Of a stretch of DNA of 32,215 nucleotides, positions 1 through 17,192 are shown piece after piece. A program made the translations under genes and the position numbers. The DNA lies in IMG/VR virus record IMGVR_UViG_3300043536_000303, positions 1 to 32,215 of that record, one strand, 5' to 3'. How positions within the stretch are numbered: the first letter of the stretch is position 1; each line of letters begins with the position of its first letter. Source of the DNA: a virus. The notes beneath the pieces were generated by a model. It was given only the letters and a program-made list of their open reading frames with translations, did not search any database and was not told the origin of the DNA.

Positions 1-225
1 ATGGTGACACAGGTGAAAAGGCGTAAGCCAAAAAGGTTCACGGTCTCCGTCGAACCGAGTGAGTATCACCTGCTCATTCAGCTCGCGCAAGGGCAACACC
101 CTCGCGTGCCATTGCAATATGTGGTCCACTGCGCGATCATCCAGTACTTGCAACAAGAGACCGCGAAGCGAGGCGCGGTACAGTCCAGCGGCAACCGCCT
201 GGAGGACAACAGCATCCGTGAGTAA
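1..225 (+). CDS. Small ribbon-helix-helix-like protein (putative DNA-binding regulator)
   Basis: A 74-residue basic protein. After a Lys/Arg-rich N-terminus (KRRKPKRFTVSVEPSEYHLL) it shows one beta-strand-like segment followed by two predicted helices ending in IIQYLQQ, the pattern of Arc/MetJ ribbon-helix-helix repressors. RHH dimers bind DNA and often autoregulate short operons such as toxin-antitoxin or restriction-modification loci. Its stop overlaps the methyltransferase start within GTGAGTAA, so the two are probably translationally coupled. The ATG is the first base of the window, so an upstream extension or upstream genes cannot be excluded. The RHH call rests on pattern only; the tail from about residue 52 looks disordered. 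Confidence 0.55.
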   Translation: MVTQVKRRKPKRFTVSVEPSEYHLLIQLAQGQHPRVPLQYVVHCAIIQYLQQETAKRGAVQSSGNRLEDNSIRE

Positions 226-1537
226 GACGCCTCATATCCCAGCAATCTCTCTTTTCAGCGGGGCCATGGGCCTTGACCTAGGACTTGAAAAGGCAGGCTT
301 TAAGGTCCGTGTGACGGTGGAATGCAACAAGTGGGCGGTTGAAACGATCAAACGGAACCGCCCTGGCCTCGCCCGGATCGACGAAGAGATCGAGGGGGTG
401 AAGACCCGTCGGATATTGGAGAAGGCCAAGCTGAAACCTGGTGGAGACTTCATCGTCGTTGGCGGACCGGCGTGCCAGTCGTTCAGCACAGCGGGCCAGC
501 GGGGATCGGTCAGCGACCCGAGGGGTGACTTGTTCAAGGCGTTCCTGCGGGTGGTCAAGCAGGCACGCCCAAGGTTCTTTGTGATGGAAAACGTCCGTGG
601 CATCCTGTCAGCCGCGATACGACACCGTCCTCTGGCCAAGAGAGGTCCTGGAAATCCTCGGTTATCCGAGGATGAAGAACTCGGCTCGGCCTTGAAGTAC
701 ATCGTCAAGGAACTCAAGAAGACGGGCTACTATGTAACTTTCGATGTCCTCAACGCTGCGGACTTTGGAACACCGCAGACACGGGAACGCGTCATCTTCA
801 TCGGCAGCCGCGACTATGAGGCTATCTCTATGCCGTCTCCCACGCACGCCAAGGAACCTATCAACGGCCAGGCTCGGTGGGCGACTCTCCAGAACGCGCT
901 CGAGGGTCTGGATGTGGAGAAGCACGACTACCATGAGCTGACGCCGAGCAAAAAGAAGTACCTGAAAAGAGTGCCTGCGGGCGGCAACTGGCGCAACCTC
1001 TCGCGGAGGTTGCAGAAGAAAGCATTAGGCAAGGCATTCGTCTCATGGGGCGGACGCGTAGGCTTCTTCCGTCGCCTGGCTTGGGGCCGTCCGGCACCAG
1101 CGTTGACGACCAATCCAGATGGCAAGGCCACGATGCTCTGTCACCCCGACGAGGATCGGCCTTTGAGCGTCCAGGAGTATGCCGCGCTGCAGCAGTTCCC
1201 TAAAAGATGGAAGTTTGCTGGCTCGACTACTCAGAAGTACGTCCAGATCGGCAACGCCGTCCCCTTGGGGCTCGGGGAGGCCATTGGAAAGGCCATTTTG
1301 GCGGCGCGCGGCAAGCCTCTCCGATTAAAGCGCAAGAAAGGAATTGTCGTCTGCGCGAGGAAGGAACTGCTCGATAGCCTTGCGCAGTGCCCCCGTACAC
1401 GCCTGAACCCGCCACGCATGAGGGTGATCAAGGAATCAAGCGCCATCGCAACCTGGCGGGACGGCCGGGGTGTCCGGCGGAAGGACATCTTGGAACTGAT
1501 CGCCTCACCCGATGCTGTTAGCGACGAAGGCAAGTGA
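218..1537 (+). CDS. DNA (cytosine-5) methyltransferase, Dcm/M.HhaI type
   Basis: Transfers a methyl group from SAM to cytosine C5. The GTG start at 218 is chosen because GGAGG lies 12 bases upstream and protein homology begins there (MSKTPHIPAISLFSGAMGLD); the frame stays open back to 59 but reads nonsense. Motif I is SLFSGAMGLDLG (residues 11-22), motif IV is GGPACQSFS with nucleophile Cys86, motif VI is ENVR (124-127), motif VIII is QTRERV, and motifs IX and X are at RPLSVQEYAALQQFP and IGNAVP. The residue before the nucleophile is Ala instead of the near-universal Pro of PCQ. At 439 residues it has normal length. It is followed by a DNA glycosylase gene, an arrangement known from 5mC restriction-modification loci where deaminated 5mC (T:G) must be repaired. 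It is probably the modification arm of the island. Confidence 0.93.
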   Translation: MSKTPHIPAISLFSGAMGLDLGLEKAGFKVRVTVECNKWAVETIKRNRPGLARIDEEIEGVKTRRILEKAKLKPGGDFIVVGGPACQSFSTAGQRGSVSDPRGDLFKAFLRVVKQARPRFFVMENVRGILSAAIRHRPLAKRGPGNPRLSEDEELGSALKYIVKELKKTGYYVTFDVLNAADFGTPQTRERVIFIGSRDYEAISMPSPTHAKEPINGQARWATLQNALEGLDVEKHDYHELTPSKKKYLKRVPAGGNWRNLSRRLQKKALGKAFVSWGGRVGFFRRLAWGRPAPALTTNPDGKATMLCHPDEDRPLSVQEYAALQQFPKRWKFAGSTTQKYVQIGNAVPLGLGEAIGKAILAARGKPLRLKRKKGIVVCARKELLDSLAQCPRTRLNPPRMRVIKESSAIATWRDGRGVRRKDILELIASPDAVSDEGK

Positions 1538-1541
1538 TCGC

Positions 1542-2270
1542 ATGTTGAAGTGCCGGCTCAAAGGGTCCCGTCGCGGTGGAACCTCGCAAGACCTTTCCTT
1601 GAGGGCGTTGCGTAGGAAAGCGCACCGGGCGACCATGAAGCTGCGGGAGGTCTATGGCACGCCGGACTTGGGCAACAAGCGCGACCCTCTGGATGAACTG
1701 GTATTCATCGTGCTCTCCCAGATGACGACCGGACCGAGCTTCAGCCGGGTTTTTGACCGTCTGAAGGAGGCGGCCTCTTGGGAAACGGTGCTGGAGGCCA
1801 GGTTACCTCGCCTGAAGGCGCTGATAAGAGACGCGGGTCTGAGCGGGCAGAAAGCGCCTCGGATCAGGGCCATCTTGCGGAAGATCAAGCGCGACTTTGG
1901 AGAAGTCCGACTCGACGCCATCAGAGGATGGCCTGACGACGAGGTCACACGGTATCTGACGAGCCTGCCGGGCGTGGGCGTGAAGTCAGCCAAGTGCGTG
2001 ATGATGTACTCCCTCGGTCGAGAAGTCTTGCCGGTTGATACTCACGTGTGGAGAGTGGCCAGACGGTTGGGACTCGTTGACCCCGCTGTGCCATATTCGC
2101 GCATCCACGATACCCTTGAACGTGTTGTCCCCAAGGCGGACCGCTACGCCTTCCACGTCAATGCGGTCGTCCATGGCCGGCGGCGGTGCTTCGCGCTCCG
2201 CCCACGCTGCCAAGGGTGTCCACTGGGGCGTATGAGCATCTATGCCAGGGCCGCCCACTCGCTTAGCTGA
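1542..2270 (+). CDS. Endonuclease III-like HhH-GPD DNA glycosylase
   Basis: A base-excision repair glycosylase. With the ATG at 1542 (GAAGG 11 bases upstream, 4 bases after the methyltransferase stop) the protein has 242 residues. The helix-hairpin-helix is LPGVGVKSAKCVMMY (142-156), with Lys148 at the catalytic Lys position of Nth and Asp166 in VDTHVWRV as the conserved catalytic Asp. The C-terminal cluster loop has Cys216, Cys223 and Cys226 with exact Nth spacing (C-x6-C-x2-C-x5), but the fourth Cys is replaced by Ser232. Mig-type T:G mismatch glycosylases sit beside 5mC methyltransferases in archaeal plasmid restriction loci and counter 5mC deamination, as Vsr does elsewhere. Context suggests the same role here. 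Mig and MutY carry Tyr or Ser at the catalytic Lys position, so this enzyme may keep lyase activity. An in-frame ATG at 1512 is an alternative start. Confidence 0.88.
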   Translation: MLKCRLKGSRRGGTSQDLSLRALRRKAHRATMKLREVYGTPDLGNKRDPLDELVFIVLSQMTTGPSFSRVFDRLKEAASWETVLEARLPRLKALIRDAGLSGQKAPRIRAILRKIKRDFGEVRLDAIRGWPDDEVTRYLTSLPGVGVKSAKCVMMYSLGREVLPVDTHVWRVARRLGLVDPAVPYSRIHDTLERVVPKADRYAFHVNAVVHGRRRCFALRPRCQGCPLGRMSIYARAAHSLS

Positions 2271-2364
2271 CACAGCTCTCCCTAATCCTCCGTTGCCGTA
2301 GAAGCTTCTCCCCGCAGAATTTACGTCTTCCGGTGCCCATTCCAACAAGAATTAATGCGATAAT

Positions 2365-2461
2365 CTGTCACACGCGCGACATTAATGTCGGAACACTCGA
2401 GCAAGACGCAATCCTCTTGAAGGGTGATGGGTGGCTGTCACGCCGGCGACATTAACAGTAG
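2365..2461 (+). promoter_or_regulatory. Twin operator/promoter-like direct repeat with a 14-bp palindrome
   Basis: Two copies of CTGTCA-N5-GCGACATTAA begin at 2365 and 2435, exactly 70 bp apart; 18 of the first 21 positions agree. In the first copy the block forms a perfect palindrome, CGACATTAATGTCG (2377-2390); the second has only the left half (CGACATTAA, 2447-2455). They fill the only sizeable gap in the island (2271-2490), just upstream of the sigma-like gene. They could be a repressor operator pair (for the RHH or winged-helix protein) or tandem promoters for the neighbouring sigma-like factor. The sequence does not decide between these. Confidence 0.5.
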
Positions 2462-2490
2462 GAGCACCAGCAGTCCTGCGGTGAGCGCAT

Positions 2491-3225
2491 ATGGGCGAAA
2501 CGAAACCAGTGATGACGCAGCAAGAGCAACGTGCTGCCCTGCAGCGGGCGGCAAATGCAGCGAAAGCCCACGATGCAAAGGGGATGTTGCAGGCGCTCTT
2601 CGAGAGCGGCGCGCTCGACGGCCTTTTCAGGCGCCTACGCAGCCAGTGGCGCCGTCTCCCAGAAGACGACATTGACTTCGCTATCGCGGAGGCCGTTGAC
2701 GTGGTCTACCAGAACGTGACCGATCGTAAGCCGGTCTATAACCTCTTGACATTGTTATGGAAAGTCGCGTACAGGCGAGCCTGCGACTACCACGAGGCCA
2801 GGAAAAAGGAATGGCCCACCGATCCGAACGCCCCCTGTTTCCAGAACCTGCCCGACACACGCACGGGCAGCGAAGAATCAGAGGGCGTGGCTCCTGAGGA
2901 GGCAGACGAAGAGGACAGTGCGCGCCGGCGCTCGCGGGCGCTTGCGATAGCACGGAGTTTGCTGCCAAGGCTCGGTCAGACCAACGTGCAGCGGGTCATG
3001 GCCTACATCTTTGACGCCGTGGAGGCAGACCGGAGGGACGTCCCGAACGAGGAGATTGGCGACGCTCTTGGCCTCAGCCCCGACACAGTCCGGGCATCCA
3101 AGTCGAGAGGGTTCAACAGGCTACAGCGCATCGCGCAGGAAGAAGGGCTAGCGGCCAGTGGCTTTGAACCGGAGGCCATCGTCCCACAAGACGATGGAGA
3201 GACAGAAGCCGAGGCGGTTAAATAA
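2491..3225 (+). CDS. Sigma-70-like (ECF-like) transcription factor
   Basis: A 244-residue protein. The middle part (DDIDFAIAEAVDVVYQNV to RRACDYHEARKKE, about residues 55-108) resembles sigma region 2. After an acidic linker (about 120-145) the C-terminal part carries a region-4-like helix-turn-helix around VPNEEIGDALGLSPDTVRAS, followed by a basic recognition-helix segment. Sigma factors direct RNA polymerase core to specific promoters. The start is the ATG at 2491 with GGTGAG 5 bases upstream. It leads the second half of the island and lies just downstream of the twin repeat at 2365-2461. A dedicated sigma-like factor inside a restriction-type operon is unusual; C proteins normally fill that regulatory role. 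The C-terminal tail is acidic and probably disordered. Whether it acts as a true sigma factor is inference. Confidence 0.72.
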   Translation: MGETKPVMTQQEQRAALQRAANAAKAHDAKGMLQALFESGALDGLFRRLRSQWRRLPEDDIDFAIAEAVDVVYQNVTDRKPVYNLLTLLWKVAYRRACDYHEARKKEWPTDPNAPCFQNLPDTRTGSEESEGVAPEEADEEDSARRRSRALAIARSLLPRLGQTNVQRVMAYIFDAVEADRRDVPNEEIGDALGLSPDTVRASKSRGFNRLQRIAQEEGLAASGFEPEAIVPQDDGETEAEAVK

Positions 3226-3255
3226 CTTCACCAGGATAGTCATGGAGACCATAGC

Positions 3256-4785
3256 ATGAAACAACACGAAGGCATCCAGGAAGAGTTTAAGGCGATCATC
3301 AAGATCGCCCAGAATGTTTCCGAAGACGTAGGTCAGGAAGTGGAAGAGGTACTGCGCGAAGGACGCGAGAACCCGCTAACGCGCGAGCGTGCCCACCGTC
3401 TCTTAGGGAGGGTGATCACCGTGTTGAAGCGTTCGGCGGCCCGCAGGGGAGACGCGGCAACGAGCAAGTCCCTAGAAGGTTCCATCGAGAAGCTCATCGA
3501 GCGTGTCATATCCACGCGAGAGGGCCTCGACGGATCGGCCTCCGAAGGACAAGATCGGTGGCCGTCGCGGCGGGTCACTTTGATAGCCCGCAACCGTATT
3601 GATCCAGGCCCGGTCTATCCCCGCCCGTGCTTCCACGGCAAGGAAGTCGCAATGAACGCCGGCTTCATCAAGACCACGGATATCGAGCTCTGGGACCACA
3701 ACGAACGGCTCGACATCCACCTGGGGCAGTTCCGTCAGAAGAACGGGCGCGAGCCGTCGGCAGAGGAATTGCTCGACATCATGCTCAGCAGGATGAAGCT
3801 GCCGGGCATCGAGGACGGCGACCAGTTCAAGATCACAGAACTCGCACGCAGCGTTGCCATCAACGGGGTGCGCAAGCCGCCGATCATCGACGTGGACGGG
3901 ACACTGCTTGACGGCAACCGGCGGGTGGCGGCCTGTCGGTACATCCTCAGTAGCGACGAGTTCGAATCAGACGAGAAGCGCCGAGCGGAGTACATCTACG
4001 TGTGGCAGCTCACCGAGCACGCTGACGATGATGACCGCAATGCCGTGGTGGTCTCGCTGAACTTCGAACACGACTGCAAGGAGGACTGGCCTGACTACGT
4101 CAAGGCGCGGAAGGTCCACGAGGAGTGGCAGGCCATGCTGGCGACCGAACCGCGTTCCCCCGGCCCCGCTCGGCAGGCCGAGATGAAGCGTGCGCTTTCG
4201 AAGAAGTTCGCCTTGGGCCCCGACACCTCGACGGTCAGCCGGTTCCTGAAGATGGTCGACTGGGCGAACGAGTTCGAGGAGTACCACATCAACGTCAAGG
4301 GGCACGACACATACGAAGTCAAACACCGTGCCAACCGGTACTTCCAGTACTTCGACGAACTGGCCAAAGGCACCAAGCCTGGCGGCGTGGCCTATGCCCT
4401 CGGCCAAGAGGAAGCATTCAAGCACCTCGTGTTCGATCTGCTCTTCGACGGAAAGTTCAAGAACTGGCGTCAGATCCGCGAGCTTAAACTGATCTACGAC
4501 AATGAGGAAGCCCGCGGTTACTTGGAGAAGGCCAAGGCTGCTCCTGACGACGAGGCCGCTGAGGAGCACTTGGAGAACGCCATGACCATCGCACGCAGCC
4601 GCAAGGCTGAGCTGCGGGAGGTCGGCGCCAACACACGCATTGAGGCGTTCGTGGAGTGGCTCGAAGAGTTGCCGGTAAGGGCCTTCCGTGACGCCATCCG
4701 ACCGGACAACCTGAAAAGGCTGCTCAAAGCGTTGCGTCTCGTTGAGAAACAGGCCGCCGCGGTGCTCGGCAAAGAGGTGGAGTGA
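3256..4785 (+). CDS. ParB/sulfiredoxin-fold protein with N-terminal extension
   Basis: A 509-residue protein. The core has the ParB-like motif KPPIIDVDGTLLDGNRRVAA (208-226, DGNRR at 219-223), equivalent to the nucleotide-binding GERRxxA / DGQHR motifs of ParB, DndB and SspE. The C-terminal half is helical and charged, with no obvious catalytic motif. ParB-fold domains bind or hydrolyse CTP or ATP, and in DndB/SspE-type systems they sense DNA modification or infection. Residues 1-132 look like a separate helical module ending in a low-quality linker (RWPSRRVTLIARNRIDPG). At 3652 (Met133) an internal ATG with AAGGAA 6 bases upstream sits exactly where the ParB part starts, so two products are possible. 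The stop overlaps the SNF2 gene region (GTGACTATG). A role as sensor or loader for the SNF2 motor is inferred from context only. Confidence 0.72.
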   Translation: MKQHEGIQEEFKAIIKIAQNVSEDVGQEVEEVLREGRENPLTRERAHRLLGRVITVLKRSAARRGDAATSKSLEGSIEKLIERVISTREGLDGSASEGQDRWPSRRVTLIARNRIDPGPVYPRPCFHGKEVAMNAGFIKTTDIELWDHNERLDIHLGQFRQKNGREPSAEELLDIMLSRMKLPGIEDGDQFKITELARSVAINGVRKPPIIDVDGTLLDGNRRVAACRYILSSDEFESDEKRRAEYIYVWQLTEHADDDDRNAVVVSLNFEHDCKEDWPDYVKARKVHEEWQAMLATEPRSPGPARQAEMKRALSKKFALGPDTSTVSRFLKMVDWANEFEEYHINVKGHDTYEVKHRANRYFQYFDELAKGTKPGGVAYALGQEEAFKHLVFDLLFDGKFKNWRQIRELKLIYDNEEARGYLEKAKAAPDDEAAEEHLENAMTIARSRKAELREVGANTRIEAFVEWLEELPVRAFRDAIRPDNLKRLLKALRLVEKQAAAVLGKEVE

Positions 4786-4787
4786 CT

Positions 4788-6572
4788 ATGACCCCGACGC
4801 GTCACGCGGTGCTCACCGCCGATGTGCGGGTGTCGGAGACCTTCGACAGAGTGCTCGTAGTGCCACGGGCAGCGGAGGAGGGTCACCACCTGCTCGGCCT
4901 GCTCCGTGAGCAACTTCCGGGCGTACACTTGCGGCGCTGCGCTGACGGCGCGAGCGCTCCTGCGCACGAAGCCGGGATCCTGCTGGACGTAGGCAAGACG
5001 GCTGGGCTGGAGTTGCGATGGACTGAGGAGGCGCGCCTGTTCGCTGAGAACCGTCGGCGCGCACGGCAGGTCCACGGAGACTTGCTGGCGCAGGTGGGAG
5101 CGATCCTGGCCGGAGGCAAGGACGAGGCACGGAGGCGGCTGATCGGCGTGGGAGGACTGAATGTCCTCGACGACCACCAATGGGTCAATGTGGCCGTCAT
5201 GACCGTGCCGGACAGTTATGGAGCTTGCATCTTCGATGAACAAGGCTCTGGCAAGACCGTGACGTTCATCTTCGGACATGATGTGCTGGTGTCTCGTGAC
5301 CAGGTGGACTTCGCGCTGATCGTCGCGCCCAAGAGCATGGTCAGCGAATGGCCATGTGACTATGAACGGTTCAAGCACGACCTCTACAAGGTGCGCGTCG
5401 TGGCTGGTTCGCGGAAGGAGAAAGGCGCTGCTATCGGTTCGGGTGCCGACGTCCTCGTGACGAACTTCGAGACGGCAGTTTCGATGGAGGCCGAACTACG
5501 CGCACTGTTGCGCCGTTACCGGGGCCGGTGCGTGCTGGTGGTAGACGAATCGTTCTTCATCAAGAACCTCGATGCCAAACGCACGCGCGCCCTGCGGCGA
5601 CTGCGCGAGTGGTGCGGGCGCGCCTTTGTGCTCTGCGGTACACCGGCGCCGAACGCTCCCGACGACCTCGTCCAGCAGTTCAGCATCGTAGACTTCGGAC
5701 TAACGTTCGAGGGGGCGGCTCTGCCCGAGGACCGCGACAAGGCGCGGCAGGTGGTCCAAGAGGCCATTGAACAGCGCGGCGTCTTCGTGCGCCACTTGAA
5801 GTCTGCGGTGCTGCCGAACCTGCCGTCCAAGAGGTTCCAACGTGTGATGCTGGCTCTCGAACCCCAGCAGCAGAGGCTTTATGCCGGAGCATTGAGCGAC
5901 TTGATCGTGGACCTGCGCGCGGCGGACGACAGTGCATTCCGGCGGCGCTTGGGGTCGTTCCTCGCGCGACGGAGCGCGCTGACCCAGATATGCTCTAACC
6001 CCGCTTCTGTGGTCGAGGACTACGCCGAAGTGCCCGCGAAGTTGAAGGCGCTCGACACGCTCCTGGAGGAACTGATCTGCCGGCGGAAAGAGAAGGTCGT
6101 CCTCTGGTCCTTCTACACCGCCTCGATACAAGCCATCGTTGACCGGTACTGCGCCTACGGCCCGATCCGCTATGACGGCACCGTCTCCGATGTGAGTGCC
6201 CGTCGAGAGGGTGTGCGCCAGTTCCAGGAAGACGACCAAGCCATGCTGTTCGTGGCCAACCCAGCGGCCGCCGGGGCGGGGCTTAACTTGCACCGCGCCA
6301 GGTTCGCCATCTACGAGTCCATGTCGAACCAGGCAGCACACTATTTACAGAGCCTCGACCGTATCCACCGACGAGGCCAGACGCGCGACGTGGAGTATTT
6401 GGTGCTCCTGTGCAACGCGACGATTGAGGTAGACGAGTACGAGCGCCTGGTCAACAAGGAGCAGGCTGCCCAGCAACTGCTGGGTGATGTGGTTGAACCA
6501 CCTGTGACCCGTCAGAGCATGTTGCAGGAGGCGATCACCTGCATCCGGCGTATTGGAGAGAGGGTGCCATGA
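4788..6572 (+). CDS. SWI2/SNF2-family ATPase (superfamily 2 helicase-like)
   Basis: An ATP-driven dsDNA translocase. The ATG at 4788 is preferred (GAGG 10 bases upstream); a GTG at 4782 in the same frame would overlap the ParB stop. In order the 594-residue protein shows motif I DEQGSGKT (about 150-157), motif Ia IVAPKSM, motif II VDES (DEAH/DEGH variant, about 244), motif III GTPAPN, and in the second RecA lobe motif V GAGLNLH and motif VI SLDRIHRRGQ with its arginine fingers. These define SNF2 ATPases. An N-terminal region of about 120 residues matches nothing I recognise. SNF2 proteins occur in DISARM (DrmD) and other anti-phage systems, but no DrmA, DrmB or DrmC is seen here. The stop overlaps the next gene (ATGA), so it is tightly coupled to the putative nuclease. 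Confidence 0.9.
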   Translation: MTPTRHAVLTADVRVSETFDRVLVVPRAAEEGHHLLGLLREQLPGVHLRRCADGASAPAHEAGILLDVGKTAGLELRWTEEARLFAENRRRARQVHGDLLAQVGAILAGGKDEARRRLIGVGGLNVLDDHQWVNVAVMTVPDSYGACIFDEQGSGKTVTFIFGHDVLVSRDQVDFALIVAPKSMVSEWPCDYERFKHDLYKVRVVAGSRKEKGAAIGSGADVLVTNFETAVSMEAELRALLRRYRGRCVLVVDESFFIKNLDAKRTRALRRLREWCGRAFVLCGTPAPNAPDDLVQQFSIVDFGLTFEGAALPEDRDKARQVVQEAIEQRGVFVRHLKSAVLPNLPSKRFQRVMLALEPQQQRLYAGALSDLIVDLRAADDSAFRRRLGSFLARRSALTQICSNPASVVEDYAEVPAKLKALDTLLEELICRRKEKVVLWSFYTASIQAIVDRYCAYGPIRYDGTVSDVSARREGVRQFQEDDQAMLFVANPAAAGAGLNLHRARFAIYESMSNQAAHYLQSLDRIHRRGQTRDVEYLVLLCNATIEVDEYERLVNKEQAAQQLLGDVVEPPVTRQSMLQEAITCIRRIGERVP

Positions 6573-7117
6573 GCCAGTCCAGAGACGTGCCCCTCGGTTC
6601 GCAGCAAAGACCTATGGCCAGCCACAAGGAACGCGTGCGGTTCCTTGAGGGCTTGGCGGTGCTCGTCGGCTGCAGGGAGCAAGTGGGCCAGGAGCTACCC
6701 GACGGGAAGCGGCCGGACGTCATGCGAGCGGATTCGTTGGGCGGGTGGCTGTTCTTCGGTGAGGCGAAGAGTACCGAGTCTCCAGGTAACTGTTTCACGC
6801 AGGCACGGCTTGAGTCGTACCTGCGTTGGGTTCGGATCCATCTGATGCAAGACGGACACGCGGCGGTCTTTGCTCTCTGCTGTGACTCTGGACGGGAGAC
6901 AGACCGTTGGGGAAGTACTGTTGTCCTTCTGGCGAAGGAAGTCGGGGTAGCACCGACACATCAAGGGCGGCAGGACTTCGGGTGCGGACTTGCTGTGGTG
7001 TGGGCTCTGTTTGAGAGCCGCGTGGGAGTAAGTGCGGTCAGAGGTAACGAAGGCCCGGCTTCGACAGATCCGTTGCGCCGGTTCGATATCGAACTTGGAG
7101 GAAGGAGGCAGAAGTGA
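6569..7117 (+). CDS. Putative PD-(D/E)XK nuclease-like protein
   Basis: A 182-residue protein of unknown family. Residues 47-69 contain a PD-(D/E)XK-like signature: Pro-Asp at 49-50 (KRPDVMRADS), a hydrophobic beta-strand GGWLFFGEAKS, and Glu65-x-Lys67. A preceding helix has ERVRFLEGL with Glu27 as possible first acidic residue. Restriction endonucleases, HJ resolvases and VRR-type nucleases share this core. Its ATG overlaps the SNF2 stop (ATGA), and its own stop overlaps the next start (GTGA). An unlinked nuclease beside an SNF2 motor and a methyltransferase would supply the missing cleavage activity of the island. The assignment rests on one motif and context, with no family match. Confidence 0.55.
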   Translation: MSQSRDVPLGSQQRPMASHKERVRFLEGLAVLVGCREQVGQELPDGKRPDVMRADSLGGWLFFGEAKSTESPGNCFTQARLESYLRWVRIHLMQDGHAAVFALCCDSGRETDRWGSTVVLLAKEVGVAPTHQGRQDFGCGLAVVWALFESRVGVSAVRGNEGPASTDPLRRFDIELGGRRQK

Positions 7118-7509
7118 CCTCGAAAAGCAGGCCGGGACTCAGCGACTACATGCAGCAGCATCCTTCGGTCTTTGCAGGCCCAGGCGTACCTTTCAGTCAG
7201 GCTTTTCCCGAAGTGGAGGAATTGAACCTCACAGTGGTGGAGGAAGGGATGCCAACGTTCGAGCGCGTCGGCGCTTGGACTTTCACGAAGGAGAACATCC
7301 GTGCGGCTGTAGACTGCAGCAACACGACCTGCTGTAACGGCGGGTTCAACATCAGCCGCTTCATCCAGGCGGCGATACGCAGCCGAGCGACTGAAAGCGA
7401 GGAAACCTTGCCGTGTGCGGGTTATGAAGGGTCGCCCGGCGGACGAGTCAAGCGTCGTTCGTGTCTCCACTGCTTCACTGCCAAGGTTCAGATCAGGTAC
7501 AAGCCGTGA
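7114..7509 (+). CDS. Small cysteine-rich protein, possible zinc-binding, function unknown
   Basis: A 131-residue protein that I do not recognise. The start is a GTG overlapping the previous stop, with a strong AAGGAGG 5 bases upstream. Six cysteines cluster in the second half: Cys68, Cys73, Cys74, Cys101, Cys117 and Cys120 (SCLHC), a spacing that could hold one or two zinc ions. The N-terminal 60 residues are acidic and lack motifs. Its place directly after the nuclease-like gene in a run of overlapping genes says it belongs to the same system, perhaps as a DNA-contacting or assembly subunit; that role is inference. Confidence 0.6.
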   Translation: MTSKSRPGLSDYMQQHPSVFAGPGVPFSQAFPEVEELNLTVVEEGMPTFERVGAWTFTKENIRAAVDCSNTTCCNGGFNISRFIQAAIRSRATESEETLPCAGYEGSPGGRVKRRSCLHCFTAKVQIRYKP

Positions 7510-7608
7510 ATGCTTACGGGCTTCCTGAACCCAGCTACGCTCTGCGTCGAGTAAAGGTGTTGTGGCAGGATGATACGCAACGAGTTTCGGGCGTTCATAA
7601 GGAACAGA

Positions 7609-7800
7609 ATGATGCACATCAACGACTTCATCATGTCGGTGTTCGAGAAGTCTCCGGGACGCTTCTTTGCAGAGAAAGAACTACGGGGAATGGCCGCCGC
7701 TCAAGGCTATGACCCGAAAGACGTGGCCGAGGTGGTGGGCGAACTCTACCGCAATGGCTACATCCGGCGCAACCGGGAACGCAAGTTCAAGTGGGTATAA
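7609..7800 (+). CDS. Small winged-helix-like protein
   Basis: A 63-residue protein, taking the ATG at 7609 (AAGGA 5 bases upstream; a second ATG at 7612 is equally possible). The frame is open back to 7570 without a comparable ribosome site. The fold pattern is helix, FFAEKELRGMAAAQGY, helix DVAEVVGELYRNGYI, then the hairpin RRNRERKFKWV, which is typical of small winged helix-turn-helix domains such as those regulating compact operons. It ends the island; about 100 bases separate it from the Cys-rich gene. It may be an autoregulator acting at 2365-2461, or a DNA-recognition subunit. The neighbouring operon converges on it with only 36 bases between the two stops. Confidence 0.6.
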   Translation: MMHINDFIMSVFEKSPGRFFAEKELRGMAAAQGYDPKDVAEVVGELYRNGYIRRNRERKFKWV

Positions 7801-7836: not shown

Positions 7837-10743
7837 CTACGAAGGCCGTTGAAGGTTGAGTGCGAGCAACTTCTCACGAATCTCCTCGTCGGTCAGGCTG
7901 GGGCTCCAGCCGTAGGCGGCGAAGACGGCCTCGTCGAGCTTCTGGTGGGCCAGCTTGAGCCAGTCGGGGCGGGCGTTGTAGAGGTTCGTCAGCGTGCGTT
8001 TGGCGAGGAGCTTGGCGTTGGCTTCATCCTTCGGGACGAGGCGGTGGTAGCGCACGGTGCCGATGCCCTTGTCGTTCGGGTTCACCACGTATCGCGCCCA
8101 GGGGCCGTTGACCGAGCCTGGGAATTCCAGAATCTCCTCCTTCATCCAGTCAGCCGGATTGAGCCAGTTGTTGCGGAGCGCGTCCAGTTCCTTCGCCGCA
8201 TCGGCAACGGTCTTCTCCTGGTCCGGTGAGGGCTTCGGCAAAGGGAATGTCTCGAAGCAGGTCGTCGGCGTGTAACGGAACCCGCTCTCACGTTCGCGCA
8301 ACTGCGTCCCCTGCGCCCGCGCCCACACCTCATGTATCCGCGAATGCAAGACGCCGAAGAAGTAGTCGTCGGAACGGGCGAAGACTAATGTCTGCTGATT
8401 ACATAGGAACTCCTGGCCACGCCAAACGAAGATGCGATGTTTGGCAACTTCCGGCGTTGCGATAAATCTTTGAATTGTGGCAAGTGCCTCACGCAACTCA
8501 ACTCGCGGGCGGGCATATTGCCACCATTTCCCGCGATAATCGTCGCGTCGCTCTTGCCTTATGGGGAGAACATTCGTGTGGACATACTCGAAAGGGAGTT
8601 CGTATGGCGCGGCCTGTTCCCTCTCCATAAACCCGAAGTCTATTGTCCAGACCCGACGATCCGACTTTGTCAAATCAACGCCGCTATGGACCCTACGAAT
8701 GGCATCGGAGTTGGGCTTCGCATGGACGTTGCCGGATGCCGCAAGAAAAACAAGGGCTTGCGCTTCGGAAATGTCAAAAGGGGCCTTGGGCGATGGCCCC
8801 ATAAAACAGATGCCGTGGTTCTCTGCGAGCGTCAAAGCCTCGGTAACATCGACAGTTGTTGTCAGGTCAGGATTGATCGCGGCCACGGCTTTCCCATCCA
8901 GCAGACGTTCCTGCTGGTTGCCGTCATCAAACCCAATCATGGAAACGTGGACGTTGGCTCCGTCGAGAATCCATTCGCGGTCGCTCTCGGCAAAGAAAAT
9001 GCCGCCGGTTTTCTTGATTCGCTTGAGCACTTCGCGGTTCGCACCGCCACGAATGCCCTGTGTAGCGAGAAGCCCCGCCCGTTTGCAGCGGCCCTTCTCG
9101 ATTTGGTCGCGCGCCTTCTCAAACCAGTAACAGCAAAGATCGCTGAAGTTGGGAATGCGGCGACCGTAGGCGGCAAAAAGCTTTTCAACATACACGTCAC
9201 CGAGCGAACTGCGAAGCATTCCGCCACCCAGGAACGGCGGATTGCCGACGATGTAATCCACCTTCGGCCATTCCGGTTCCTTCGGATTGTTCGGGTCGCT
9301 CAGGTCAATGATGGCGTCCATGCACTTGAAGTTGTCAAGCTTGCGGAGGACCGGTTCGCCGACGTTGCCGAGGCCGTTGTCCCGCACCCATTGCAGGTAG
9401 CCGATCCACACCGTCATCTGCGCCAGCTCATAGGCGTAGGGGTTGACCTCAATGCCGTAGAGCTGCCACGGCCCGACCATCGGCAGGAACCCGCCCATAC
9501 CGTTGCGCGCGCCGTAGAGGACGACTTCCTTCTCCAGGTCCTTGAGCTTCTGTAACGTGACGTAGAGGAAGTTACCTGAGCCGCAGGCCGGGTCGAGCAC
9601 CTTTACGTTTGCCAATCGGTCCATGAGGAATCGGCGAACGAGCGCCTGGGCTTCAAGCCGCGCCTTGGCCTTGACGGAGGGTGCGACCGTTCTGCCTGCG
9701 TCGTTCGGCCCCGGCTTCTTCTTGCCGGTCGTCAGGAGGTCGTCGCAGGTCTGCCGAAGCTCCTCCCACTCCCGGCGCAAGGGCTGCATGACGACCGGCT
9801 CGACGAGGACTTCGATATCTTCGCGGCTGGTGTAATGGGCGCCGAGTTGCGAGCGTTTGTCCGGGTCCAGGCCACGCTCGAACAGCGTGCCGAAGATGCT
9901 GGGGTCCACGGCGCTCCAGTCGAGCGTGGAAATCTGCGCAATCCGCTCGATCTCCTCGGCCTCCATGTCGAGCACCGTGGCGTCGGAGAAGAGGTTGCCG
10001 TTGAAGTGAAGGATTTTGTGTTCCCCGAACAGCCCGCCGTCGGCCATCGCCTCGAAGAGTTGCGCCATGACCTTTCGGAAAAGGGCGGGGTCATGTTGAG
10101 AATTCTTCATGACGCGGCTGAAAAGGCCCCGGGGCAACAGGCCGACGTCCTCGGCGAAGAGGCAGAAGATCATCCGGTCTAGGAAGTGCGCCACATCGAG
10201 CGCCGGCAGGCCGCGCTTGCGCATGGACTGGGCAATCTCCGCAAGGTGCCGCGCCGCCTCGGTGGTGATGGACTGGATCGTGACGCCCGGCTTGAGCTTC
10301 TCCGGCTCGAAGAAGACGTTGCGCAGGAGGGCCAGGTTTTCTGGTTTGGCCAGATCGGCCAGCGCGATCTCGTATTTCACCGTGGGGGTGTTGGTGAAGT
10401 TCGTGCGGATGATGATCCGCTCCATATCGCAGACCACCATCAGCGGCGGGTTCTCGAGCGCCTGGGCATAACGCAGGAGTTGCTGGTAGGCCGCGTCGAG
10501 GTTCTTGTGCTTGCCCTTGTACTCCCAGCCGAAGAAGCCCTTCTTCCAGACATCGGCAAAGCCGTCGCCGCCGGTGTTCTTCTCCGCGCCGCGCTCGAAG
10601 GTAAAGGACTCGCCGGTCGGGTCCATCTCCACAGGCTCCGGGTGCCCCAGCAGCCGGCAGAGGCCGCAGAAGTGCTGCTGGCAGCCGGAGCGCTCAGTCA
10701 GGTCGGCTTTCTGCCAGATGGCGATGAATTCCGTAACCGTCAT
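7837..10743 (-). CDS. Single-chain restriction-modification enzyme, MmeI-like (type IIL/IIG)
   Basis: A 968-residue fused nuclease and adenine-N6 methyltransferase. The ATG at 10743 is preferred because AAGGGA lies just upstream and the frame before it is not protein-like. The N-terminal nuclease core is GFADVWKKGFFGWEYKGKHK, with Asp64, Glu74 and Lys76, the D-x9-E-x-K spacing of MmeI. A helical spacer follows, then motif X near HYTSRED (about 303), SAM motif I VLDPACGSGNF (382-392), and catalytic motif IV NPPF (501-504), which marks an N6-adenine methyltransferase. The last 350 residues hold the target-recognition region. Such enzymes cut and modify from the same target domain and need no separate methyltransferase. 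It is the second gene of an operon after the AlbA_2 protein (67 bases apart). All key motifs are intact. Confidence 0.9.
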   Translation of the reverse strand: MTVTEFIAIWQKADLTERSGCQQHFCGLCRLLGHPEPVEMDPTGESFTFERGAEKNTGGDGFADVWKKGFFGWEYKGKHKNLDAAYQQLLRYAQALENPPLMVVCDMERIIIRTNFTNTPTVKYEIALADLAKPENLALLRNVFFEPEKLKPGVTIQSITTEAARHLAEIAQSMRKRGLPALDVAHFLDRMIFCLFAEDVGLLPRGLFSRVMKNSQHDPALFRKVMAQLFEAMADGGLFGEHKILHFNGNLFSDATVLDMEAEEIERIAQISTLDWSAVDPSIFGTLFERGLDPDKRSQLGAHYTSREDIEVLVEPVVMQPLRREWEELRQTCDDLLTTGKKKPGPNDAGRTVAPSVKAKARLEAQALVRRFLMDRLANVKVLDPACGSGNFLYVTLQKLKDLEKEVVLYGARNGMGGFLPMVGPWQLYGIEVNPYAYELAQMTVWIGYLQWVRDNGLGNVGEPVLRKLDNFKCMDAIIDLSDPNNPKEPEWPKVDYIVGNPPFLGGGMLRSSLGDVYVEKLFAAYGRRIPNFSDLCCYWFEKARDQIEKGRCKRAGLLATQGIRGGANREVLKRIKKTGGIFFAESDREWILDGANVHVSMIGFDDGNQQERLLDGKAVAAINPDLTTTVDVTEALTLAENHGICFMGPSPKAPFDISEAQALVFLAASGNVHAKPNSDAIRRVHSGVDLTKSDRRVWTIDFGFMEREQAAPYELPFEYVHTNVLPIRQERRDDYRGKWWQYARPRVELREALATIQRFIATPEVAKHRIFVWRGQEFLCNQQTLVFARSDDYFFGVLHSRIHEVWARAQGTQLRERESGFRYTPTTCFETFPLPKPSPDQEKTVADAAKELDALRNNWLNPADWMKEEILEFPGSVNGPWARYVVNPNDKGIGTVRYHRLVPKDEANAKLLAKRTLTNLYNARPDWLKLAHQKLDEAVFAAYGWSPSLTDEEIREKLLALNLQRPS

Positions 10744-10810
10744 TCCGCGTCCCTTCGGACTTACCTGCCTTCGCCACACCATTCCTTCAACGCCGGTTTA
10801 CCCGCTGCCA

Positions 10811-12265
10811 TCATCCGTTGCCGGCCCTCCTGAGAGCCTCTTCACCTGCGGAGGTCAGGCGGTATCGCTGCATGCGGCTGCGCGGCTTTTCGGGGATTGT
10901 GCGCTCCAGCCAGCCTTGTGCGAGCAGGGGCTGAAGATATGACCGCAGGAAGTGGACACGATCTTTCAGGCCAGCCGTACTTTGAAGGGTTTCAGCGCTG
11001 ACCACTTGTCTGGCAGCTTCCAGGACGGCCCCGACTTGTGGGGTGACTTGTGGGGCGACTTGTGTGGTGACTTGTTTGGCGGTTTGCTGCGCCCCGAGAA
11101 CGTTCACCTTGAAGGTCACCACCGCCGCTCCGGTGATCTCCTCAAACTTCGGCGGGGCGATCCGGGCCTGGCGGCACATCTCGATGACCCGGTTGGTCCC
11201 GCGCCCCCATTTCTCGATCAGGCCGGCGCGGTGAAAAATGTCCGCGATGATCGGATTGCGCTGAACAGACTGGTGGGACTTGCTGAGCTTGTCGGGCGTA
11301 ATCCCTGCCGGGTACGTTCCGGCGCTCCAAACCTCCACCCGGTCGTCGAAGATGGCGAGCGAGATCGCCCCGCCAGCGATGGAATAGTCGCGGTGGATCA
11401 GGGCGTTGACAAGTATCTCCCGCATGGCATCGGGCGGAATGAGGGGCGTGTCCACGCGTTGGAGCCTGCCCGGAACGATTTTGCCCGGAAGCGGGAAGTG
11501 CCTCTGACAGAAAAGTTGGGCCTCTTCCAGCAGCTTGAACGCGGGCGCGCGAAGATTCCGCTGGTCGAGGAATTCCGTCTTGTCCGTCCCGCGAAAACGC
11601 GCCATGCGCAGCTCGCATTGAGGGTAATCGGGAAGGAACTCCTTTCCGAAGAGCACCACGGCGGCCTGAAGAATCTTGCCATCCCGGCGCAGTTTCAGTC
11701 GGTCGAGAACGTCAGCAAGCTTGGCGCCGACAGGGCCGACGAGGCGTCCCGCGGACTTGGCCGCCTCGACAATGCGAAAAACTTCGTCACGGTCAATGTC
11801 TCGGAGTTCGACGCCTTCAGCAGGCTCGTTCTCCCATCGGCGCTTCCCGTGGGCGCGGTCCAACAGGAGTTTCTCGTACTTGCCTTGCGGCATTCGGCGC
11901 GTCGTGCTGCCGACGCGTTCATAGGCGCGCCCTTCATAGGTGAATGGACCCGTGGTCAAGCTGGCATCGACCATGACCGCAATTACCTCGCGGCCAGTTT
12001 TCACCTTCACGCGCTGAATAGAAACATGGGCAGGAGGCTCAAAACGGTCGGCAGCCTGCGCGATGTCCTGGAGCGTCTGGTCGGAGACTTCTTGCCCTTC
12101 AATTATGCCGCCCGCTCGAACGCCGAAGAGCACGACGCCGCCAGGACCGTTCAGAAATGCGCAAAGCGTCTGCATGGCGTCCTTAATCTCGCCTGTCGTT
12201 CGCTTGAATTCCAGGCGATCCGACTCGCCGCGTGTCGCGAGGGTTTTCAGGTCGGTGAGCTTCAT
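10811..12265 (-). CDS. AlbA_2 (Schlafen-like) putative DNA-binding protein with RecG-like C-terminal region
   Basis: A 484-residue protein. The N-terminus carries the AlbA_2/Schlafen signature: ESDRLEFKRT, then a helix and FLNGPGGVVLFGVRAGGII (about residues 14-57). The middle part contains AMREILVNALIHRDYSIAGG and a segment GLIEKWGRGTNRVIEMC, shared with the HATPase_c_4 region of RecG-related putative transcriptional regulators. A short Gln/Val/Thr/Pro-rich repeat linker (TTQVAPQVTPQV, near 405) leads to a winged-helix-like C-terminus (LLAQGWLERTIPEKPRSRMQRYRLT). Proteins of this type are frequent in defence islands and next to restriction enzymes; their biochemical role is not settled. It is the first gene of a two-gene minus-strand operon with the MmeI-like enzyme and may regulate or assist it. 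I see no clear ribosome site at 12265. Confidence 0.82.
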   Translation of the reverse strand: MKLTDLKTLATRGESDRLEFKRTTGEIKDAMQTLCAFLNGPGGVVLFGVRAGGIIEGQEVSDQTLQDIAQAADRFEPPAHVSIQRVKVKTGREVIAVMVDASLTTGPFTYEGRAYERVGSTTRRMPQGKYEKLLLDRAHGKRRWENEPAEGVELRDIDRDEVFRIVEAAKSAGRLVGPVGAKLADVLDRLKLRRDGKILQAAVVLFGKEFLPDYPQCELRMARFRGTDKTEFLDQRNLRAPAFKLLEEAQLFCQRHFPLPGKIVPGRLQRVDTPLIPPDAMREILVNALIHRDYSIAGGAISLAIFDDRVEVWSAGTYPAGITPDKLSKSHQSVQRNPIIADIFHRAGLIEKWGRGTNRVIEMCRQARIAPPKFEEITGAAVVTFKVNVLGAQQTAKQVTTQVAPQVTPQVGAVLEAARQVVSAETLQSTAGLKDRVHFLRSYLQPLLAQGWLERTIPEKPRSRMQRYRLTSAGEEALRRAGNG

Positions 12266-12586
12266 GGCTGCCAGGGACGGTCTCCAGTTTCAATTCATTG
12301 CGCATTCAACATGATGTCTGCCGTCAGGTGACGTGTGAGGAATCTACCACGCACTGCCCGATTGCGCAAGCCGGGAGGCCGAAGCGGTGCGCTGCGTGGT
12401 CGGGCACTTGTCCTTGGTGTGAGCAGCCGCGAGACTGCCGCGAAGAACTCGGAAGCAGCTCGGAAGTCAACCTCTTCATAGCTCATTTCAGAGCACGCGC
12501 GCTATGGCTTGTAGTATATCGGTTTGCTCTGAGATTTCCATGAAGCCCCATCAGCGGAAACTTCTGCCCGCGTCGCTGATCTTGGA
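12266..12586. other. 320-bp gap without a gene; possible boundary between defence island and mobile element
   Basis: No convincing coding frame, tRNA or hairpin terminator was found here. It separates the AlbA_2 gene (transcribed away to the left) from the 3' end of the SymE/recombinase operon. Serine-recombinase elements usually have one attachment site next to the recombinase operon, so this is a reasonable place for attL. I cannot identify a core because the other end of the element is not in view. Confidence 0.35.
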
Positions 12587-12853
12587 CTACTTCAGCGGAC
12601 GTATCACCAAATAGCCTCGGCGCACAGCTACGACGACGCTCGAGCCTACGGTGAATCCGGCGCGGGCCAGCCAGCGGCCCTTGAGCCGGATGAATGGACA
12701 GGTCGCGGAGTCACCGCTTTCGAGGTTGTACGAAACGTGCTCCACCACCAAGGTCCGCGTGTCGTGCACTCGCGTAACGCGTTTCCCCTGTTTCGGCGTT
12801 CGAGGCGCGTCAAACTCAATCTTGGCTGTATTCGCCGACTTCACTTTGTGCAT
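12587..12853 (-). CDS. SymE-like type I toxin family protein
   Basis: An 88-residue protein. Its C-terminal part, CPFIRLKGRWLARAGFTVGSSVVVAVRRGYLVIRP by position (residues 52-86), matches the SymE_toxin domain, an AbrB-like SpoVT fold; key residues are IRLKGRWL and AGFTVG. E. coli SymE is an SOS-induced protein with RNA-endonuclease or nucleoid-condensing effects that is held in check by the antisense RNA SymR. The ATG follows the recombinase stop by 3 bases (TGACCCATG) with no strong ribosome site, suggesting translational coupling. SymE-like genes occur on many mobile elements, perhaps as addiction modules. I cannot see a SymR equivalent; an antisense promoter over the start would be needed. 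Confidence 0.82.
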   Translation of the reverse strand: MHKVKSANTAKIEFDAPRTPKQGKRVTRVHDTRTLVVEHVSYNLESGDSATCPFIRLKGRWLARAGFTVGSSVVVAVRRGYLVIRPLK

Positions 12854-12856
12854 GGG

Positions 12857-14599
12857 TCAGTCCGACACGACTACGGGCGCGAACCCTAGACTGGCGCGCT
12901 GTTCGGCCCACGCCATGGGCATGGGTTCGCTCAACTTGATGAGCGACAACCCGCTCGGCTCGCGGCCGTCAAGGATGGCCTGAACAATATCCGGGGCGAG
13001 GTAGTTCAGCCGCAGCATGCGGGCGGCGTAGACGGTGCTGACCTTCATGCGTTTTGCGAGCGCCGCAATGGTGTCGAATTTCCCGGCGTCGAGCATGTCC
13101 TGCCATTGGCGGGCCTGTGCGAGGGCCAGGACGAGCGGTTCCTGCGGCGGCGCCACGACTGCAACGTCCGACGCATCCGCTTCGGGAACGATAATCTCCT
13201 TCCTGCCGCCGCGACGTTTGAACTCCATCGGGATGCGGATGGTGACCGCGTCGCCCGCCTGACCTGCGGCCGCGCCGGTCTGCTCGGCGCCGCGCGATTC
13301 CAGGGCAAGCGAGCGGAGGCCGTTGGCGCGGAAGGTTAGAACGATGCCTTTTTCCTCCACCACCACGCTTTCCACAAGAAGCTCGACGATCCGCGTCTGC
13401 TCCCCGGGGAATAGCTCGTCCCAGAGAACATCCACGTTCTGGAACGCGTCCCGGATTTCCCCGTGGCTCAGCGGTGACTCCACCACGCGGCTGACGCGCG
13501 CGATGATCTCCGGGTCACGCAGAACGTTGCGCAGCCGGTCCACCACGACGCGTTCGATTTCGCCGGCGGCCACGCTTGTGACGGGACACGCGCCGTACCC
13601 GCTCTTCGAGGCGTTCTGGCAGAGGTAGTACCGGTACATTTTCCCTGCCTTGCGCGTGAAGGTGATTCCCATGCTCGTCTGGCAGTGGTCGCAGCGGATG
13701 AGACCTTTGAGGAGCGCAGGTGTCTCTGCCTTCGTCTTTGCGGTGCGCGCATGGTGATTCTTGGCCAGGATGGAATGCGTCTTGTCCCAGAGTTCTCGTG
13801 GGATGATCGCCTGGTGCTCGCCAGGATAGACGTTTCCCTTATGCGTCACCTCGCCCAGGTAAGTACGGTTCCGAAAGAGCCGATACAAGTGCGCCTTGCT
13901 CCACGGGCCGCCTTTGCGTTCCTTCCCCTGGTGAGTCGTCCACGTCTTCGTCGTATGGCCCTGCTCGTTCAACTGCCGTGCGAGGATCGTCGTCGAGCCG
14001 ATCCGCAGGAAGGAATCGAAGACGTGCCGGACCAGTTTCGCCTCCGCCGGGTTGACTTCAAGTTTCCCGTTCACGATGTCGTAGCCGAGCAGCGGCAGTC
14101 CGCCGCATCGTTTACCCTTCTTCTTCGCGGCGGCGATCTTGTCGCGGATGCGCTCGGCGATGATCTCGCGCTCGAATTGCGCGAAAGAGAGCAGGATATT
14201 CAGCGTCAGCCGGCCCATGCTGTCGGTGGTGTTGAAGTGCTGCGTCACGGAGACGAAGGAAACCTTATGCCGGTCGAAGAGTTCCACGAGCTTCGAGAAG
14301 TCCATCAGCGACCGGCTCAGGCGGTCAACCTTGTAAACCACGATACAGTCGATTCTTCCAGCCTCAACGTCGCGCAGGAGCTTCTGCAAGGCCGGACGCT
14401 CCAACGTGCCGCCTGAGAACCCGCCGTCGTCGTAACGGTCGGGCAGCAGCACCCATCCTTCGTTCCGCTGGCTGGCGACATAGGCCTCGCCCGCCTCGCG
14501 CTGGGCGTCGAGCGAGTTGAAGTCGCTGTCCAATCCCTCATCCGTGGACTTGCGGGTATAGACGGCGCACCGGATGGGGCGGACGACGGTCTTCTGCAT
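12857..14599 (-). CDS. Large serine recombinase (site-specific integrase)
   Basis: A 580-residue recombinase that carries out integration and excision through a 5'-phosphoserine intermediate. The N-terminal resolvase domain contains AVYTRKSTDEG with catalytic Ser18 and the active-site arginines in YKVDRLSRSLMDF and SFAQFEREIIAERIRDKI. The Recombinase domain follows (GGLPLLGYDI to about 290), then a zinc ribbon with Cys303, Cys306, Cys327 and Cys338, and a long C-terminal tail with a helix-turn-helix-like segment (IAALAKRMKVSTVYAARML). Its ATG overlaps the DUF2924 stop (ATGA). This is probably the integrase of the element on its right, placed near the element's left end. No frameshift or missing catalytic residue is visible. 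Confidence 0.93.
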   Translation of the reverse strand: MQKTVVRPIRCAVYTRKSTDEGLDSDFNSLDAQREAGEAYVASQRNEGWVLLPDRYDDGGFSGGTLERPALQKLLRDVEAGRIDCIVVYKVDRLSRSLMDFSKLVELFDRHKVSFVSVTQHFNTTDSMGRLTLNILLSFAQFEREIIAERIRDKIAAAKKKGKRCGGLPLLGYDIVNGKLEVNPAEAKLVRHVFDSFLRIGSTTILARQLNEQGHTTKTWTTHQGKERKGGPWSKAHLYRLFRNRTYLGEVTHKGNVYPGEHQAIIPRELWDKTHSILAKNHHARTAKTKAETPALLKGLIRCDHCQTSMGITFTRKAGKMYRYYLCQNASKSGYGACPVTSVAAGEIERVVVDRLRNVLRDPEIIARVSRVVESPLSHGEIRDAFQNVDVLWDELFPGEQTRIVELLVESVVVEEKGIVLTFRANGLRSLALESRGAEQTGAAAGQAGDAVTIRIPMEFKRRGGRKEIIVPEADASDVAVVAPPQEPLVLALAQARQWQDMLDAGKFDTIAALAKRMKVSTVYAARMLRLNYLAPDIVQAILDGREPSGLSLIKLSEPMPMAWAEQRASLGFAPVVVSD

Positions 14600-15030
14600 C
14601 AGGCGGCCTCCTCCTGCTTGCGAATCCCGAAGAAGAGCGGCCCGTTCCAGCGGGTGCCGGTGATCTCCCTGGCGATGGCGCTCAAGGACTTGAACGGCCG
14701 GCCACGGTACTCGTAGCCGTCGCGCGTCACGGTGACCTCATACCGCTCGCCGTTCCATTCCCGCACGAAACGCGTACCGGGGACGGGGCCGTTCCTGCGG
14801 CGGTTGGACGCCTTCTCACGTTCTTCGGCGATCTCGCGCAACTGCGCCACGGTCTGCTCCGGAAGCCCGCCGTAGGCCAGTTCCTGGATGCGATACGCCA
14901 GGCGCTTGACCATGTGCGCCCGATTCCGCACAGGCGCCCCGGTGTCGAAGAGCGCCTTCCAGCGTTCCTTCAACTGCGGCATGCCCATGCGGTTCAACTC
15001 GGCGACCTGCGCGACCACGTTCTTTGCCAT
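14599..15030 (-). CDS. DUF2924 family protein
   Basis: A 143-residue protein recognised as DUF2924, including MPQLKERWKALFDTGAP near the N-terminus and the C-terminal block GERYEVTVTRDGYEYRGRPFKSLSAIAREITGTRWNGPLFFG (about residues 94-136, shown here by its key words). The C-terminal part resembles the RAMA/ORC-binding-like fold that contacts DNA. DUF2924 genes nearly always precede serine recombinases on prophage-like elements and are suspected accessory or directionality factors, but this is unproven. A good ribosome site (AGGAGGG on the minus strand, 15036-15042) survives, although an insertion sequence lies immediately upstream, which probably separates the gene from its original promoter. 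Confidence 0.88.
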   Translation of the reverse strand: MAKNVVAQVAELNRMGMPQLKERWKALFDTGAPVRNRAHMVKRLAYRIQELAYGGLPEQTVAQLREIAEEREKASNRRRNGPVPGTRFVREWNGERYEVTVTRDGYEYRGRPFKSLSAIAREITGTRWNGPLFFGIRKQEEAA

Positions 15031-15145
15031 AACGGCCCTCCTATAAATGCGTTACAGCAACATGGTAACGTGAAAAACCAGGGTCGGGACAGTACGCTCA
15101 TCTCGCGGTAACATCAAGTCGTTTTTTCAAGGAAAGGAGCCGCGG

Positions 15146-17112: not shown

Positions 17113-17121
17113 GCCGTCTCT

Positions 17122-17183: not shown

Positions 17184-17192
17184 TGCGTTCGT

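Follow-up and report, generated by a model that had tools for sequence, protein, structure and literature searches.

A candidate multi-gene restriction-modification locus that joins a C5-cytosine methyltransferase and a DNA glycosylase to a ParB-fold protein, an SNF2 ATPase and a nuclease-like protein

The first 7800 positions of the IMG/VR 'virus' record IMGVR_UViG_3300043536_000303 (32,215 bp, analyzed over its full length and called the window throughout) are occupied by a tight array of plus-strand genes. A first-pass annotation made from the sequence had placed nine genes here, and all nine were verified as open reading frames (ORFs; Table 1). They include a C5-cytosine DNA methyltransferase (MTase; the gene is called MT), a DNA glycosylase (GLY), a sigma-like protein (SIG), a ParB-fold protein (PARB), an SNF2-family ATPase and a small nuclease-like protein (NUC). 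In our reading the locus is probably a multi-gene restriction-modification (R-M) system on a mobile element, in which PARB, SNF2 and NUC would form the restriction arm, with built-in repair of deaminated 5-methylcytosine (5mC). This reading is based on the gene content, on the co-occurrence of the genes in other genomes and on the fusion of MTase and glycosylase in relatives, together with a ParB fold predicted by modeling.

Co-occurrence of the genes in other loci

Relatives of the cluster were reached by a search for SNF2 in plasmids, followed by an SNF2 alignment that found the IMG/VR locus L008; the window and L008 then gave five genome loci, in which SNF2 is 43 to 66% identical (Nostoc 66%, two Anaerolineae 55%, a gammaproteobacterium 46%, Methylobacillus 43%). 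The alignment was needed, as the window ParB or SNF2 alone retrieved nothing from viral contigs, and the window ParB nothing from plasmids and phages. In the 11 loci tallied (the window, L008, L088-L092, L099-L101 and L103), SNF2 is present in 11/11, a C5 MTase in 10/11 (not in L088), a nuclease-like protein, either NUC or the protein designated Y, in 9/11, and a glycosylase in 5/11. MTase, ParB, SNF2 and a nuclease-like protein make up the conserved core. In both Anaerolineae loci (L089, L090) the order is that of the window, with MT and GLY fused, followed by SIG, PARB, SNF2 and NUC. L100 and L101 (IMG/VR) read MT-X-ParB-SNF2-Y, where X and Y are the flanking proteins and Y ends in a D...ExK...Q motif; of the gamma- and betaproteobacterial versions L091 and L092, the former is arranged likewise and the latter likewise plus GLY. 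L008 carries X-ParB-SNF2-Y and MT, L103 (a Chloroflexota-group genome) Y-SNF2-ParB opposite MT and a glycosylase, and L099 (IMG/VR) RHH-MT opposite SIG-PARB-SNF2.

The MTase was not used as a query in these searches (the seeds were SNF2 or ParB), yet a C5 MTase is adjacent in all but one of these loci. Since this neighbor is the sole C5 MTase of the genome in G005 and G082, and one of two in G002-G004, we estimate that the adjacency is far beyond chance. The ParB profile was found in 2/400 genomes of the G002 phylum sample, in 1/292 of the Nostoc phylum sample, and in 1/369 of the class sampled from G005, with the same result from G004; all of these counts include the seed genome, and the two class samples drew largely on the same genomes. 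The loci are thus sporadic across the samples, which suggests horizontal spread. The expectation that distant genomes would carry the set with its order preserved is borne out for much of the set, and for the order in the two Anaerolineae genomes; elsewhere the arrangements vary, the glycosylase is found in fewer than half of the loci, SIG belongs to one sub-type, and the last two genes of the array are not conserved.

The ParB-SNF2 core is shared by further variants. In Firmicute-type prophage loci (L017, L024-L026, L038, L060, L066, L068, L069 and Streptococcus phage Javan191), X-ParB-SNF2-Y occurs whole or in part, together with a C5 MTase. In L024, where these two proteins were tested, X matches BanI/DpnII restriction enzymes (PF24447 1.6e-9, PF04556 1.4e-7) and Y contains NOV_C (PF13020 1.2e-12); L024 and L026 are almost identical to each other and cannot be counted as independent. 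In alphaproteobacterial plasmid loci the flanks of SNF2 encode ParB-N proteins and also a small protein, which in L005 and L006 contains the NUC-like 'GEAK' motif. ParB-like proteins and SNF2 also adjoin ATP-binding, radical SAM and DGQHR proteins in L004 (6438-13684), L005 (5487-15326), L006 (5454-13700) and L009 (1-8431). The small protein lies between ParB-like protein and SNF2 in L004-L006, the ATP-binding protein is of GHKL type in L009, the radical SAM protein is annotated as hypothetical in L006, the DGQHR protein is DpdB-like in L009, and a PIN-like protein occurs in L004 and L005. This set seems to be a multi-gene system in its own right, so far undescribed, that shares the core.

Properties of the cluster genes

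The 5mC methyltransferase and the Nth-like glycosylase of the first-pass annotation are both confirmed by Pfam (Table 1). Among structures, GLY is nearest to DrEndoIII-1 (1.3e-36), followed by ROS1 (2.4e-16) and Mig.MthI (1kea, 4.4e-9), and it retains the catalytic Lys and Asp of the Nth type. A repair enzyme is genetically linked to the C5 MTase in several loci: it is adjacent in the window and L103, fused in one ORF in L089 and L090, and part of the same cluster in L092. The occurrence of the fusion in two genomes links modification to base repair. The glycosylase of L103 is different from GLY: its best PDB match is Mig.MthI (1kea, 3.3e-43), whose annotation names G-T mismatch repair, and it matches the PADLOC R-M profile PDLC03398 (4.5e-43). 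A Vsr-like gene is found in the Firmicute-type loci L024 and L026. That differing repair enzymes accompany the same kind of system points to the repair of 5mC deamination as their probable role, and GLY is predicted to repair deaminated 5mC (T:G).

Two details of the repair genes can be added. In L103 (11603-12493) the Mig.MthI-like glycosylase is fused to a Cro/CI-type helix-turn-helix (HTH) and directly follows the C5 MTase. In L090 a Vsr-like fragment (12227-12508) lies just downstream of NUC, and the two kinds of repair, by glycosylase and by Vsr, may therefore be combined in this locus.

MT, whose likely start is the GTG at 218, shares 45-48% identity with plasmid MTases paired with SinI-family (GGWCC) restriction endonucleases (REases), its nearest typical R-M relatives; in the target recognition domain (TRD) the identity to these relatives is only 32-36%. 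Because of this similarity to MTases of SinI-family systems, GGWCC is our first and tentative guess for the target of MT. This motif is depleted in the window (58 seen vs 95 expected), and in the right part (12801-32215) few pentamers are more strongly depleted (31 seen vs 61 expected). The depletion fits a SinI-like target, and is only suggestive because other pentamers are equally low and the TRD has diverged. A homologue of the small RHH-like protein that overlaps the start of MT also adjoins the MTase in L099 (7e-6); scans with Pfam, PADLOC, NCBIfam and PHROGs profiles gave no significant match for RHH.

By sequence PARB has weak phrog matches (from 4.6e-4), and PDB sequence searches with the ParB profile and with the NUC profile gave no matches. 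An AlphaFold2 model of PARB built from ten homologues (pLDDT 77) was compared to the PDB with Foldseek, and the best 12 matches were all of the ParB/KorB family (first E 5e-4, prob 1.00); a ParB N-terminal fold is therefore predicted by the model, and DGNRR is invariant across 10 PARB homologues. The description of this protein as a ParB/DGQHR-like sensor stands as regards the ParB fold, but not as regards DGQHR, as a DGQHR protein occurs only in the more distant plasmid/IMG loci. The SNF2 motor is corroborated by Pfam. NUC has orthologues in L089 and L090 (3e-23, 3e-27), and shares with its relatives a conserved P-D...G-(E/D)-A-K motif of the D...ExK type.

SIG is weakly sigma-like, its match to TIGR02937 (2.5e-5) being below the cut-off and a profile match to SigW having E = 0.005. 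Relatives are found in L088, L089, L090 and L099 (3e-49 to 4e-27), directly upstream of ParB within one sub-type, and an unrelated protein takes this place in the others. The idea of a dedicated sigma-like factor is thus retained as a weak similarity, but not as a general feature of the system. Two further sigma-factor-like proteins are encoded by the same element (window 17193-17735, minus strand; 22504-23208, plus strand). For the Cys-rich ORF (CYS) and the winged-helix-like ORF (WH), the syntenic loci contain no relatives and the profile scans gave nothing convincing; neither ORF is conserved.

Table 1. Genes of the cluster and two neighboring genes of the element, with positions in the window
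Feature	Position	Strand	Evidence or remark
RHH-like small protein (RHH), 74 aa, putative regulator	1..225	+	ORF; overlaps MTase start
C5-cytosine DNA methyltransferase (MT)	218..1537	+	PF00145 7.9e-60
HhH-GPD DNA glycosylase (GLY), Nth-like, LPGVGVK...VDTH	1512..2270	+	PF00730 2.8e-13
Sigma-70-like / HTH protein (SIG), 244 aa	2491..3225	+	TIGR02937 2.5e-5
ParB-fold protein (PARB), 509 aa, GNRR motif	3256..4785	+	predicted structure
SNF2-family ATPase/translocase (SNF2), 596 aa	4782..6572	+	PF00176 4.3e-17, PF00271 1.3e-6
Small nuclease-like protein (NUC), RPD...GEAK motif	6569..7117	+	motif and orthologues
Cys-rich ORF (CYS), 131 aa	7114..7509	+	ORF; overlaps NUC by 4 bp; membership uncertain
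Winged-helix-like ORF (WH), 76 aa	7570..7800	+	ORF; weak profile matches only; membership uncertain
Type IIG restriction enzyme, MmeI-like	7837-10782	-	PADLOC 5.6e-283; in left part of window
Serine recombinase	12857-14599	-	between right replication module and left part

Within the array PARB, SNF2, NUC and CYS overlap by 4 bp at each junction and MT and GLY by 26 bp, while gaps of 30 bp and 220 bp separate SIG from PARB and GLY from SIG. Base 1 of the record is also base 1 of the RHH ORF, and therefore the cluster may be cut at the left. A phage-like replication module occupies the right part of the window (about 23.4-32.2 kb) and comprises an AAA_24 ATPase, a RusA-like protein, a second C5 methyltransferase, a helicase and a Prim-Pol (the RusA-like and helicase labels were read from the sequence). 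Because the recombinase splits this module from the left part, which holds the cluster, the type IIG enzyme and a Schlafen protein, the cluster is probably cargo of a mobile element. The type IIG enzyme adjoins the Schlafen AlbA_2/HATPase_c_4 protein beside the recombinase (window 7837-12265, minus strand). A three-gene set at 18376-22300 (minus strand), consisting of an SMC/AAA_23-like ATPase, a HEAT-repeat plus HATPase kinase and a response regulator, is possibly a signaling or defense unit.

Proposed mechanism and alternative explanations

For the gene products we infer self-marking, restriction, complex formation, a substrate for the glycosylase, and regulation. The C5 methyltransferase would modify a short motif and thereby mark self; PARB, SNF2 and NUC would form or load an ATP-dependent complex that recognizes unmarked DNA, translocates and cuts; GLY would remove T from the T:G mismatches left by deaminated 5mC marks, as Vsr does elsewhere; and expression is probably controlled by RHH, by SIG or by both. 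The model of the first-pass annotation, which had much the same outline, is partly supported, in the co-occurrence of much of the gene set and in the link between MT and GLY, but GLY is not part of the core, SIG is specific to a sub-type and CYS and WH are unconserved. A more specific proposal, plausible but tentative, is an R-M class in which a ParB-type (possibly CTP-gated) DNA clamp recognizes the target and loads SNF2 and the nuclease, coupled to a C5 MTase whose mark has a mutagenic by-product, and which in some lineages is joined to a glycosylase dedicated to its repair.

Two more observations count in favor of an R-M system: the element also encodes a type IIG R-M enzyme (PADLOC), and in the Firmicute-type loci ParB, SNF2 and a NOV_C nuclease are combined with a BanI/DpnII-like REase and a C5 MTase, to which L024 and L026 add Vsr. 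Several findings weigh on the other side. In GLY the fourth Fe-S cysteine is a Ser, and relatives keep all four. L088 (Nostoc) consists of SIG-ParB-SNF2 only, with no adjacent MTase, L099 has neither GLY nor NUC, and in L099 and L103 the MTase is on the other strand. The window query found no C5 MTase in the alphaproteobacterial plasmids that carry ParB, the small nuclease-like protein and SNF2, so the ParB/SNF2 unit can function in other contexts. Few of the sampled genomes (about 0.3-0.7%, seeds included) have a match to the ParB profile. Finally, the structure model of NUC is of low quality (pLDDT 62) and no nuclease was matched by it, so that the PD-(D/E)XK label is putative and based on the motif.

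Some of these findings would also be explained if the cluster consisted of two independent neighbors in a defense island, a type II-like MTase with a glycosylase that has lost its own REase and a separate ParB-SNF2-nuclease system. The gap between GLY and SIG and the opposite strands in L099 and L103 agree with such a division, as do the plasmids and L009, where a GHKL/radical SAM/DGQHR cassette instead accompanies ParB, nuclease and SNF2; the explanation stays alive because the ParB/SNF2 unit stands without an adjacent MTase in L088. We regard it nonetheless as rather unlikely, given that C5 MTases of varied subfamilies, in varied orders and in several phyla, are neighbors of the unit in nearly every locus tallied, and that in two genomes the sole C5 MTase is the adjacent one. 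Still less probable is a phage or mobile-element module acting for its own benefit, in which the MTase shields the DNA of the element from host restriction and ParB, SNF2 and nuclease serve replication, partition or recombination. It is true that the window comes from IMG/VR and encodes both a recombinase and a replication module of phage type, and that phages often encode SNF2 helicases (phrog_62 1e-71). However, similar sets are found in bacterial contigs, and in L089-L092 no genes for phage replication are evident in the annotated flanks. In the window, 16 kb separate the cluster from the phage module, which encodes a helicase, a primase and a second C5 MTase of its own, and replication hardly explains an MTase-glycosylase fusion.

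The glycosylase itself might be the weapon, acting as restriction glycosylases or ROS1-like 5mC glycosylases do and excising an unmodified or modified C or T from foreign DNA. Glycosylase-based restriction exists in PabI (PMC4081073), and the Nth-type catalytic residues of GLY and the place of ROS1 among its better structural matches are compatible with an attack on DNA; however, about half of the loci have no glycosylase, its partner where fused is the MTase, and both the Mig-like enzyme of L103 and the Vsr of L024 and L026 are repair proteins, which makes this role very improbable. If the favored reading of an R-M system with its own repair is true, a multi-subunit restriction class would be added to type I, type III, McrBC, LlaJI, BREX and DISARM, and the ParB fold would enter target recognition for DNA restriction. 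A defense system would then carry, and even fuse, a repair enzyme that offsets the mutational cost of cytosine methylation, and this cost, as well as the choice between Vsr and glycosylase repair, would become directly testable.

Comparison with known systems

No named system matched the cluster as a set in PADLOC (2023), NCBIfam, Pfam or PHROGs, and the gene combination is not described in the passages found in the open-access literature, including R-M/HEPN/BREX/Dnd papers; on the basis of these sources the system is probably undescribed, as the first-pass annotation had supposed. Its statement that no DISARM, BREX, Dnd/Ssp or Zorya gene set is present agrees with the PADLOC scan of the nine genes. 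The SNF2 motors of DISARM, Dpd, Zorya and BREX generally resemble that of the cluster (DpdE 4e-32, ZorD 6e-30), and DISARM also has a C5 MTase. However, in the PADLOC scan of the nine genes DrmA/B/C of DISARM were absent, with only the DrmMII (1e-95, MTase) and DrmD (8e-18, SNF2) profiles matching; PADLOC found among the cluster genes neither ZorA-C nor DpdA-D, the similarity being limited to the ZorD-like and DpdE-like helicase; and PADLOC and NCBIfam found neither PglZ and BrxC of BREX nor DndC/SspD-type modification proteins of Dnd/Ssp.

SinI-type type II R-M systems are close through the plasmid MTases described above, and no SinI-like REase was found among the cluster genes with Pfam and PADLOC. 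In R-M systems of the LlaJI/SpyI type a C5 MTase is likewise accompanied by an NTP-dependent restriction arm of several subunits (PMC4260502), but this arm consists of an AAA protein and a LlaJI-type nuclease, whereas the cluster has ParB and SNF2. The streptococcal SpyI system (phi1207.3) was considered as the same system and rejected, being of LlaJI type, with the SNF2 of the phage located in the replication region.

MORC/paraMORC R-M operons contain C5 methylases, Vsr, an SFII helicase (SWI2/SNF2 in one group), a restriction-fold nuclease and a GHKL/MORC ATPase (Iyer, Abhiman and Aravind 2008, PMC2292703). The cluster is similar in joining a cytosine methylase (PF00145) to an SNF2 helicase (PF00176), and different in having a ParB-fold protein, and a glycosylase instead of Vsr. 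The Pfam scan of the nine cluster genes found no GHKL/MORC ATPase. Mig.MthI accompanies the MthTI R-M system. Like this pair, and like Vsr with Dcm-type MTases, the cluster combines a C5 MTase with a putative T:G repair enzyme, and the L103 glycosylase is closest to Mig.MthI; GLY, in contrast, is nearer to DrEndoIII-1, and the restriction arm proposed for the cluster would be an ATP-driven complex.

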